From: Amphritea atlantica
GTDB taxonomy: Bacteria; Pseudomonadota; Gammaproteobacteria; Pseudomonadales; Balneatricaceae
DNA: 64,000 nt
Assembly: GCA_024397875.1 (NCBI GenBank)
Contig: CP073344.1
Coordinates: 3,153,001 to 3,217,000, forward strand
Direction of reading: 5' to 3'
Both the position numbers and the translations under genes were made by a program. A model generated the notes under the pieces. The model ran no database searches. It saw nothing but the letters and a program-made list of their open reading frames with translations, and was not told the DNA's origin. The stretch's first letter is position 1. Each line of letters opens with the position of its first letter. Of the stretch, positions 16,775 to 18,254 are shown piece by piece.

Positions 16775-16922
16775 TGGTAGCGGGGCCAGAGTTATTCATA
16801 ACAGCCTGCAGGCTGCCCCCCTACAGGCTTCGACGCTTCGCGTCTCGATGCAAATTGCGCTCTAAGCACAATTAGTGAACTGACGACCTTCCCGAGCGGT
16901 AATAAAGAGCTGAGCCCGACGC
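16775..16922 (-). repeat. fMet 3'-half repeat R1 (with T-loop insertion)
   Basis: The most distal copy. It keeps TCTGGCCCCGCTACCA and the GGTCGTCAGTTCA side of the T-arm, but the T-loop is interrupted by about 85 bases (16791-16875). It is followed only by a decayed terminator. Confidence 0.85.
16791..16875. mobile_element. Structured ~85-base insert in repeat R1
   Basis: It starts with the palindrome gttat-tc-ataac and contains agcctgcaggct and gacgc-ttc-gcgtc hairpins. It splits a T-loop that is uninterrupted in R3-R9. No open reading frame. A non-autonomous, REP/MITE-like element is my inference; the same element is in R2. Confidence 0.5.
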
Positions 16923-17001
16923 TTTCTATACCTGCTTACAACCACCGAACTTCAGGCACAAAAATAGGCATGTCAGTACGACACACCTTTAATCATTACG
17001 T

Positions 17002-17152
17002 TGGTAGCGGGGCCAGAGTTATTCATAACAGCCTGTAGGCTGCTATGCCCCTTTGGGCTTCGACGCTTCGCGTCTCGATGCAAATTGCGCTCTAAGCACA
17101 ATTAGTGAACTGACGACCTTCCCGAGCGTTTATAAAGAGCCGAGCCCGACGC
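17002..17152 (-). repeat. fMet 3'-half repeat R2 (with T-loop insertion)
   Basis: Same architecture as R1, with an ~88-base insert. The following terminator (16960-16990) has an interrupted T-run (tatttt on the minus strand), so it is probably weak. Confidence 0.85.
17018..17105. mobile_element. Structured ~88-base insert in repeat R2
   Basis: Nearly identical to the R1 insert at both ends (gttattcataac... and ...agcacaattag) and through the gacgc-ttc-gcgtc stem. The middle differs: agcctgtaggct followed by a gccc-cttt-gggc hairpin. Shared position in the T-loop shows R1 and R2 arose by duplication after insertion. Confidence 0.5.
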
Positions 17153-17230
17153 TTTCTATGCCAGCTTAAAACCACCGAATTTCAGGCACAAAAAAAGGCA
17201 TATCTTTCGATACACCTTTAATTATTACGT

Positions 17231-17293
17231 TGGTAGCGGGGCCAGATCTAAGCCGACGACCTTCCTGCCCTTATTATGAGCCGAGCCCGACGC
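17231..17293 (-). repeat. fMet 3'-half repeat R3
   Basis: A 63-base tRNA-derived part, close to R5 and R7. It is followed by a type A terminator at 17190-17219 (AAGGTGTATC-GAAA-GATATGCCTT plus T-run). Confidence 0.9.
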
Positions 17294-17353
17294 CTGATCT
17301 CAAATTCCAGGCGAAAAAAAAGCCAATCTTTCGATTAGCTTATCTTTCCGTTG

Positions 17354-17419
17354 TGGTAGCGGGGGCCAGATCTAAACAGACGACCTTTCAGAGCGTTTAT
17401 CGAAAGTCGAGCCCGGGAC
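17354..17419 (-). repeat. fMet 3'-half repeat R4
   Basis: Identical to R6 over the tRNA-derived part. The former anticodon arm has become CGACTTTC...GAAAGGTCG, which can form a new stem. Followed by a type B terminator at 17314-17341 (AAGCTAATC-GAAA-GATTGGCTT plus T-run). Confidence 0.9.
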
Positions 17420-17505
17420 TTTCTAGCTCTTTTTCACTCGTTAATTTCACTTTATTTCAGACACAAAAAAAGGCATATCTTTCGATACACCTTTAATTAT
17501 TACGT

Positions 17506-17568
17506 TGGTAGCGGAGCCAGATCTAAGCCGACGACCTTCCTGCCCTTATTAAGAGTCGAGCCCGACGC
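17506..17568 (-). repeat. fMet 3'-half repeat R5
   Basis: Differs from R7 by a single base in the tRNA-derived part (aagagtcgag versus aagagccgag). Followed by a type A terminator at 17465-17494. Confidence 0.9.
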
Positions 17569-17628
17569 CTGATCTCAAATTCCAGGCGAAAAAAAAGCCA
17601 ATCTTTCGATTAGCTTATCTTTCCGTTG

Positions 17629-17694
17629 TGGTAGCGGGGGCCAGATCTAAACAGACGACCTTTCAGAGCGTTTATCGAAAGTCGAGCCCGGGAC
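17629..17694 (-). repeat. fMet 3'-half repeat R6
   Basis: Identical to R4 in the tRNA-derived part, with a type B terminator at 17589-17616. R5+R4 and R7+R6 form two near-identical 275-base blocks. Confidence 0.9.
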
Positions 17695-17780
17695 TTTCTA
17701 GCTCTTTTTCACTCGTTAATTTCACTTTATTTCAGACACAAAAAAAGGCATATCTTTCGATACACCTTTAATTATTACGT

Positions 17781-17843
17781 TGGTAGCGGAGCCAGATCTA
17801 AGCCGACGACCTTCCTGCCCTTATTAAGAGCCGAGCCCGACGC
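17781..17843 (-). repeat. fMet 3'-half repeat R7
   Basis: A 63-base tRNA-derived part ending GGCTCCGCTACCA. Followed by a type A terminator at 17740-17769. Confidence 0.9.
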
Positions 17844-17903
17844 CTGATCTCAAATTCCAGGCGAAAAAAAAGCCAATCTTTCGATTAGCTTATCTTTCCG
17901 TTG

Positions 17904-17967
17904 TGGTAGCGGGGGCCAGATCTCAACTGAAGATCTTCCCGCCCTTATAAAGAGCCGAGTCCGACGC
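17904..17967 (-). repeat. fMet 3'-half repeat R8
   Basis: Keeps GTTGAGATCTGGCCCCCGCTACCA-like T-arm pairing but has a changed variable region (AAGATCTTCAG). Followed by a type B terminator at 17864-17891. Confidence 0.9.
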
Positions 17968-18045
17968 TTTCTATGCCAGTTTAAAACCGCCGAATTTCAG
18001 GCACAAAAAAAGGCATATCTTTCGATACACCTTTAATTATTACGT

Positions 18046-18110
18046 TGGTAGCGGGACAAAATCTAAACGGACGACCTTCCCGAGCGGTTATAAAGAGCCG
18101 AGCCCGACGC
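18046..18110 (-). repeat. fMet 3'-half repeat R9 (nearest the tRNA)
   Basis: First copy downstream of the tRNA. The T-stem is broken (TTTTGTCCCGCTACCA instead of TCTGGCCCCCGC...). Followed by a type A terminator at 18005-18034. Confidence 0.9.
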
Positions 18111-18134
18111 TTTTTATGCTAGAATTTCAGGCAC

Positions 18135-18166
18135 AAAAAAAAGGCATGCCATTACGACACACCTTT
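18135..18166 (-). terminator. Intrinsic terminator of tRNA-fMet
   Basis: Minus strand stem AAAGGTGTG/CATGCCTTT (two G-U pairs) with a nine-base loop and a run of nine T. It is the parent of the type A terminators repeated in the array. Confidence 0.85.
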
Positions 18167-18177
18167 AATTATTACGT

Positions 18178-18254
18178 TGGTAGCGGGGGCCAGATTTGAA
18201 CTGACGACCTTCGGGTTATGAGCCCGACGAGCTACCAGGCTGCTCCACCCCGCA
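18178..18254 (-). tRNA. Initiator tRNA-fMet (anticodon CAT)
   Basis: 77 bases with CCA encoded. Read on the minus strand: acceptor GCGGGG/CCCCGC, D-arm GGAGCAGCCTGGTAGCTC, anticodon arm with the three G-C pairs (GGGCTCATAACCC) typical of initiator tRNA, and T-arm GTCAGTTCAAATCTGGC. Position 1 is T facing T72, so the 1-72 pair is open, the formylation and initiation determinant; E. coli has C-A here. All stems are intact, so this is the functional copy beside the degenerate array. Confidence 0.97.

Follow-up and report, generated by a model that had tools for sequence, protein, structure and literature searches.

The best-described relatives of the locus analysed here are the rtT repeats of Escherichia coli. 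Reported in 1991 (via PMC4986893, PMC2965389), rtT RNA is presented in the excerpted account of PMC4986893 as being released from tRNA operon transcripts and as linked to the stringent response and to a shortage of amino acids. In E. coli K-12, the 178-nucleotide (nt) rtT repeats of tyrTV consist of GGTTCGA, hairpins including CCCGAAGGG, and then ATCCTTCCCCCACCACCA, which is the tRNA's own end; the tpr open reading frame (ORF) lies inside rtT. Attenuator-like elements belonging to bacterial interspersed mosaic elements (BIMEs) are said to resemble rtT in the part of PMC2965389 that treats them. Here we describe a 64,000-nt stretch of the Amphritea atlantica genome (contig CP073344.1, positions 3,153,001 to 3,217,000; hereafter the window) in which an initiator tRNA gene, tRNA-formylmethionine (tRNA-fMet), is trailed by nine altered copies of its own 3' portion. 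On balance we lean towards reading this locus as a tRNA-trailing array of rtT-type repeats that derive from the resident tRNA, would carry selected insertions and would act as RNAs. Judged by title and abstract, none of the open-access PubMed Central matches listed was recognised as dealing with arrays of altered tRNA 3' ends behind an initiator tRNA.

The tRNA-fMet(CAT) gene is the single intact tRNA of the window, and the motif CCGCTACCA occurs ten times on its strand, the minus strand (16775-18186), in the tRNA itself and at the ends of nine units. A first-pass annotation of this DNA had counted one intact tRNA and nine same-strand units over 16775-18254, and that count stands. Each unit opens with a terminator directly after the preceding CCA, continues through a spacer variable in length and sequence, and closes with a tRNA-fMet piece that runs from the D stem (3' strand) through to CCA and lacks the 5' part. 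By the simplest alignment, the anticodon loop CTC/ATAA is broken between C34 and A35 in all nine copies by an insertion (for example GGCTCTTT) that is common to relatives and absent from the tRNA. The annotation was thus right that this loop is altered in every copy, but the loop is split rather than replaced; its view of the unit as a defined chimera and not random decay was right. In units 8 and 9 the T loop, too, is interrupted after GTTCA, by an insertion of 87 nt in the former and 84 nt in the latter, so that the proposed 63-66 bases of tRNA 3' half describe copies 1-7, whose T loop is uninterrupted, and not copies 8 and 9. An intrinsic terminator had been claimed for each unit. It is present after the tRNA and copies 1-7 (hairpins of -7.8 to -9.0 kcal/mol, then 7-8 T), but copy 8 combines a hairpin of -12.0 kcal/mol with only 5 T, preceded by A, and copy 9 is decayed in both hairpin (-5.6) and T run (4 T). 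Units 4 and 5 belong to a 275-nt higher-order repeat.

Comparison with other genomes separates the parts of the unit that follow the host tRNA from a part that stays constant without it. For the host comparison, 140 units were extracted from 40 genomes with an anchor pattern that passes over T-loop-insert units and those whose ends are unusual, and the 8 units lacking a host T-part were left out. Where the fMet T-part of the host is unlike the Amphritea type, 51/53 units are closer to their own tRNA, one is equal and one worse (38/40, one and one when only distinct units are considered); with ten T-part types competing, the own type is best for 104/132 units and tied for 14. Gene conversion with the tRNA would explain these tRNA-like parts. 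The insertion CTCTTNATAA is exact in 94 of the 140 extracted units and variant in 46, and it recurs in other families. In an alignment of two Amphritea clades (A1; 43 + 23 units, 3 of 69 de-duplicated units left out), mean between-clade identity is 80% for the insertion, 95% for the anticodon 5' part, 87% for the acceptor and 68% for the T arm; it is 17% for the pre-core flank (unalignable), 30% for the post-insertion segment, 44% for the trailer and 53% for the terminator stem, in which 7 of 9 pairs nevertheless show compensatory changes. Four-fold sites of the neighbouring gene are 35-70% identical between the window and ten relatives. The genus-level value is the least biased measure of insertion identity because the motif was part of the search in other genera. 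Conservation of the insertion is not due to conversion from the tRNA, since the tRNA does not contain it, and as conversion fails to explain the constant insertion, these comparisons speak for selection on its sequence. The annotation had reasoned that an array with no transcripts past the first terminator (18135-18166) and no conservation in related strains would be inert duplication debris; units are present in 16/17 Amphritea genomes, and on the side of conservation this objection fails. Because relatives keep the same alteration, the array is probably useful, being conserved and probably selected in part.

Table 1. Features of the tRNA-fMet array, with coordinates in the window.
Feature	Coordinates	Strand	Basis
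Intact initiator tRNA-fMet (CAT)	18178..18254	-	ARAGORN; Rfam RF00005 tRNA, 59.7 bits
Terminator of the tRNA (hairpin, 8 T), also first part of unit 1	18135..18177	-	
Unit 1, 132 nt: terminator, spacer, anticodon-insert core, CCGCTACCA	18046..18177	-	core 18046-18115 by nhmmer
Unit 2, 142 nt	17904..18045	-	CCGCTACCA spacing, nhmmer
Unit 3, 123 nt, second terminator type	17781..17903	-	CCGCTACCA spacing, nhmmer
Unit 4, 152 nt	17629..17780	-	CCGCTACCA spacing, nhmmer
Unit 5, 123 nt	17506..17628	-	CCGCTACCA spacing, nhmmer
Unit 6, 152 nt	17354..17505	-	CCGCTACCA spacing, nhmmer
Unit 7, 123 nt	17231..17353	-	CCGCTACCA spacing, nhmmer
Unit 8, 229 nt: anticodon-insert core and T-loop module	17002..17230	-	CCGCTACCA spacing, nhmmer
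Four-hairpin T-loop module of unit 8	17019..17105	-	model R2, 89.5 bits (sequence in the model's own alignment); covariation
Unit 9, 227 nt: anticodon-insert core and T-loop module	16775..17001	-	CCGCTACCA spacing, nhmmer
Four-hairpin T-loop module of unit 9	16792..16875	-	model R2, 76.6 bits (sequence in the model's own alignment)
Tenth unit, start only, truncated, decayed terminator	16748..16774	-	

The array is not a peculiarity of the window. Three fMet genes, identical in sequence, are present in the genome, which comprises 4.55 Mb in 2 contigs. One of them heads a second array at C1:470063-471991 (locus L037), which is longer than that of the window and has 14 cores, the last truncated; the third lies behind a tRNA-Leu, ahead of a gene that we take to be rimP, and has no trailer. 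A hybrid query composed from window units matches 29 places in the genome, 3 of which are ends of intact fMet genes; with 23 of the 29 at E < 1e-10, a chance origin of the units is excluded. Among these arrays that of the window is neither unique nor local debris, and the two arrays of this genome, together with the units found across the genus, speak for the reading that we prefer. A unit pair without a tRNA lies at C1:773295-773445. The 4-kb stretch fetched around it (L039) has no tRNA and shows, at positions 1780-1945, a lone unit and terminator just past the end of another reading frame.

Relatives of the gene next to the window array lead mostly to the same genus (10/13 loci are Amphritea). 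The unit query matches all 17 Amphritea genomes; in one of them, G012, it finds only intact tRNA ends, and this genome carries T-loop-module units behind two fMet genes instead of the anticodon type. Among the fetched Amphritea loci, 28 of 39 intact fMet genes have a unit directly behind them, 10 have none and one is at a contig end; genes were counted by pattern, with one array that the pattern missed (L075 4038-4114) added from nhmmer, and at least 8 further single fMet matches of the unit query lie outside these loci. The trailers are unevenly shared between loci, the rimP-type fMet locus having an array in 1/9 and the other fMet loci in 27/30 (two without, both in G012, and one undeterminable). 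The rimP-type locus with two units is that of G011 (L082 2522-2875), where they look as if copied from another fMet locus. Inverted fMet arrays face each other within 6-13 kb in G002 (L069) and G007 (L076), and G003 has two as direct repeats ~12 kb apart; because of such pairs, the arrays may drive rearrangement.

Beyond the genus, the pattern CGGGCTC N0-2 CTCTTNATA occurs in 35/116 family genomes and 9/16 genera, with a reversed control giving 0; the same pattern catches 14/17 Amphritea genomes and misses true arrays in G007 and G009. A slightly longer pattern matched 4/390 genomes of the order, own genome included. One of these matches marks units behind fMet (G195) and another marks units at the start of a contig, where the stretch contains no tRNA (G470); an exact motif in G471 was not counted as a unit, having no tRNA or T-part beside it. 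Anticodon-type units behind fMet were found in families f2 (G116, G160), f6 (G120, G370) and f37 (G306), and the fMet trailers of three f6 genomes (G313, G272, G471) have other, unlike cores. In G370 (L212 446-850), three trailing copies retain nearly the whole tRNA-fMet body, the anticodon still being split by a long insertion; ARAGORN labels one of them tRNA-Leu. Three f37 loci (L246, L262, L213) show fMet trailers with a different short T-loop insert (GGTTC, then CCTCTCGTTTCAA or similar), and in L246 and L262 the anticodon part differs as well. An order-level model search was non-discriminating, in that intact fMet genes match too. Three of its regions (L214, L215, L220) showed no trailing copy, and in L210 there was none on the strand inspected while the extraction pattern found 2 units.

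The T-loop insertions in units 8 and 9 are members of a module 84 positions long whose hairpins covary, with compensatory changes in 7 of 14 predicted pairs (alignment A2, 14 sequences). The module model finds 35 places in the 17 Amphritea genomes, 30 of them directly behind a tRNA. Trailers of the fMet type account for 16, of which 2 are close to a contig end in stretches that lack a tRNA; another 16 are in later-fetched loci, all just behind a tRNA on its strand, and 3 are outside the examined set. The later-fetched loci (n=13) concern tRNA-Gln(TTG) in 8 genomes and tRNA-Phe, tRNA-Val and tRNA-Leu in one each. Base-by-base reading of 6 of them places the module after GTTC(G)A in the T loop; behind it comes the 3' end of the tRNA concerned, which has decayed in some cases. 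The module is palindromic, as are repetitive extragenic palindromes (REPs) and BIMEs, but it differs from these in being confined to tRNA trailers: of 32 examined places in the genus, 30 are directly behind a tRNA and the other 2 are in fMet-type units near contig ends. A genome-wide REP family was considered and rejected, as in this genome a 90-nt insert query matches only copies 8 and 9 and a structural model adds four places, all behind tRNAs. Among 142 other genomes of the class, model R2 of the module matched one, G598 (L291), behind tRNA-Arg(ACG) in a different family, so that either the model would be narrow or the module rare.

The parallel with E. coli tyrT/rtT drawn by the annotation was right and is closer than claimed. 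In both cases tandem repeats stand behind a tRNA gene on its strand, and each ends in that tRNA's own 3' end. Copies 8 and 9, moreover, share the T-loop breakpoint of rtT, with the insertion just after GTTC(G)A, and a like layout, a predicted chain of hairpins including one of the CCC-GAA-GGG type. They alone among the window copies combine an insertion after GTTC(R)A with a hairpin of the CCC-RAA-GGG kind, hairpin 3 of copy 9 reading CCT-GTA-GGG. In minimum-free-energy folds, the upstream copy and the tRNA 3' strand form an outer stem in E. coli Tyr and in the Leu, Val and G012 fMet units, but not in Gln or Phe; window unit 8 is closed by the T stem itself. The window array departs from rtT in that copies 1-7 bear the anticodon-loop insertion and an uninterrupted T loop, the units are separated by terminators, and the array is linked to fMet and not to Tyr. 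The Rfam RtT family (RF00391) finds 4 places in E. coli at 133-138 bits. An RtT-type unit between tyrT and tyrV of K-12 (L289 1564-1695, 132.9 bits) lies outside the annotated rttR.

Linkage to the initiator tRNA, which the annotation had emphasised, is real for the fMet arrays but not exclusive, as related trailing units stand behind tRNA-Leu, Gln, Phe and Val. In the A. atlantica genome itself, tRNA-Leu(CAA) (L277 480-1142, C1:174.5-175.1 kb) is followed by one module-type unit and two doubly split units, whose anticodon loop is broken after C34 by GCTTTCCAGAAGATCTCTG or near it and whose T loop is broken after GTTCA by AGCTCTGGAATCAGC, with terminators between them (one locus, by eye). The anticodon type is therefore not tied to the initiator tRNA, and the split has the same position in both tRNAs. 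At C1:245.6-246.4 kb (L276 600-1400), tRNA-Met/Gln pairs precede three 162-nt module units with the tRNA-Gln 3' end, and tRNA-Gln arrays show, by eye, no terminator between units. The window copies are not tandem functional tRNA genes: they lack the 5' part, their T arm has drifted, and ARAGORN calls one tRNA in the window. Tandem intact fMet genes, such as metZWV and those of some f21 and f7 genomes, likewise present repeated fMet 3' ends split by terminators, but each of their copies is a whole tRNA gene, whereas the window copies lack the 5' part and have a split anticodon.

A mechanism consistent with these observations would begin with tandem duplication and unequal recombination, which grow and shrink the arrays, and with gene conversion from the resident tRNA. 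Transcription would proceed by read-through from the fMet promoter, because the units have none of their own. A crude sigma-70 scan, with hand-entered matrices and 32 tRNA rows that form no valid positive control, gave in general no promoter-like signal at the core: across 121 units, the median fraction of shuffles that scored at least as high was 0.485. The 8/121 units at or below 0.05 are all in the second array, L037, where alone CTGAAA-17-TATAAA fits; a promoter for each unit was rejected, and the units do not look like independent small-RNA genes. Each terminator would stop some polymerases, yielding short RNAs with the conserved insertion and a tRNA-like CCA end, which tRNA processing may set free. 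RNA from external and internal transcribed spacers of tRNAs can act as a small-RNA sponge, as the excerpted text of PMC8166272 describes. If released, the units would resemble the 3' external transcribed spacer of leuZ (3'ETS-leuZ) and other tRNA spacer RNAs in being cut from a tRNA precursor, but differ in that 3'ETS-leuZ appears in that text as one 53-nt spacer with no tRNA-derived copies and no array (PMC8166272). By analogy with what is reported for rtT RNA in E. coli, the short RNAs may act through the insertion sequence. Alternatively, the insertion might keep a truncated initiator-like RNA from being charged or from entering the ribosomal P site. We prefer the insertion as the putative acting part of the RNA, because the harmless-making change would explain the place of the split and not the sequence inserted there.

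Several results weigh against an array of selected, acting RNAs. The core has little structural support: when folded in isolation, five cores do not exceed shuffled sequences in stability (z -0.92 to 1.66), none of 5 predicted core pairs has a change on both sides, a structured RNA core was accordingly rejected, and a D-armless tRNA-like fold is predicted only for the two units drawn from the second Amphritea clade. The annotation had also suggested small RNAs that bind tRNA-processing, CCA-adding or initiator-recognising proteins, and such a decoy role is weakened because the T arm drifts in the genus, far below the anticodon 5' part (68% versus 95%), and because the folded cores behave like shuffles. 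RF00391 (gathering threshold 45 bits) has no match in window positions 16600-18400 up to E 5 or, at a limit of E 1, in loci L276-L279, L285 and L286, and E. coli rtT is in turn missed by model R2 (E 0.18); since these profiles do not cross-match, units 8 and 9 are taken as rtT-like in predicted plan and are not classed as RtT. For 14/132 units a T-part type other than the host's is better, 12 of them in Amphritea with drifted T parts. Cores per array range from 0 to 14, and the spread is patchy, the exact motif being absent from 81/116 family genomes. Because the pattern or model that led to the other genera contains the motif, conservation there is partly a matter of ascertainment. In a less motif-bound sample, 40 fMet loci over the order picked by intact-tRNA model score and then read, a truncated copy trails only 5, additional intact fMet genes trail 4 (f21 and f7 genomes among them), and 31 have neither (one with only ~150 nt behind the tRNA); outside the family, trailers are therefore a minority state, and the cores differ there.

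The variable copy number, the patchy distribution, the weakly folding core, the higher-order repeat of the window and the homogenisation of the T-part with the host tRNA all fit a neutral satellite, in which harmless tandem duplications, broken once within the tRNA and once past the terminator, were amplified by unequal crossing-over and homogenised by conversion with the tRNA and among copies, the insertion being merely ancestral. This remains the main rival, but we consider it unlikely, since conversion from an insertion-free tRNA cannot conserve the insertion, which is kept between clades and recurs in other families while the pre-core flanks have become unalignable, and since the terminators stay paired through compensatory changes. 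Those paired stems, the hairpins with at least 5 T after the tRNA and copies 1-8, and the convergent orientation of the next gene (15908-16669, plus strand; presumably ybfF-like) would also suit a graded block whose sole function is to halt read-through from a very strong tRNA promoter into that gene, with the tRNA parts as passengers. Such a block leaves the conserved insertion and the four-hairpin module unexplained and sits poorly with the order loci that have no copy at all and with the terminator-free tRNA-Gln arrays, and we judge it improbable. Integration scars at a tRNA 3' end, a further suggestion of the annotation, or attachment sites for elements that integrate through tRNA loops have some appeal: the insertions sit in two loops, anticodon and T, which are the loops used by tyrosine recombinases as crossover points, and the module with a tRNA 3' end recurs at several tRNA species. 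However, the 10 PF00589 matches in the genome are all at least 388 kb away from the window array and at least 820 kb from the second one, 0/11 viral-contig matches of one motif pattern have tRNA flanks, and the ORFs between paired arrays in G005, G016 and G054 include no obvious integrase by eye, no family search having been run. Within these searches we found no recombinase or element adjacent and no element carrying the site; a displaced tRNA end should carry no insertion, and the units hold one that the tRNA lacks. Scars were rejected as very improbable.

At the gathering threshold, Rfam reports nothing in the window besides the tRNA. Two weaker hits in scans at E<=5 were taken as chance: S774 in the window (26.9 against 48 bits) and MicX in the second array (24.4 and 16 against 75 bits).

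The array offers a natural example of concerted evolution that links a tRNA gene with its counterfeit copies while the insertion withstands homogenisation. It also carries a warning to annotators, as a tRNA-like end downstream of a tRNA gene is not necessarily the scar of a phage. For decades, rtT has been a curiosity of one E. coli tRNA operon. A wider generalisation, plausible and offered tentatively from comparison of sequences, is that many gammaproteobacterial tRNA genes may be followed by "counterfeit tRNA" RNAs, a class so far overlooked, with E. coli rtT as the one known case. Insertions into such RNAs would occur at two standard points, one behind anticodon base 34 and the other behind TTC of the T loop, the conserved insert would carry the function, and the tRNA end would be kept in step by gene conversion; the initiator anticodon insertion would be a new, older subclass with copy numbers >10. 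If rtT is indeed one case of a class spread across tRNA species and families, its function opens to comparative work, and the conserved insertion, the terminators and the T-loop module can each be mutated separately.

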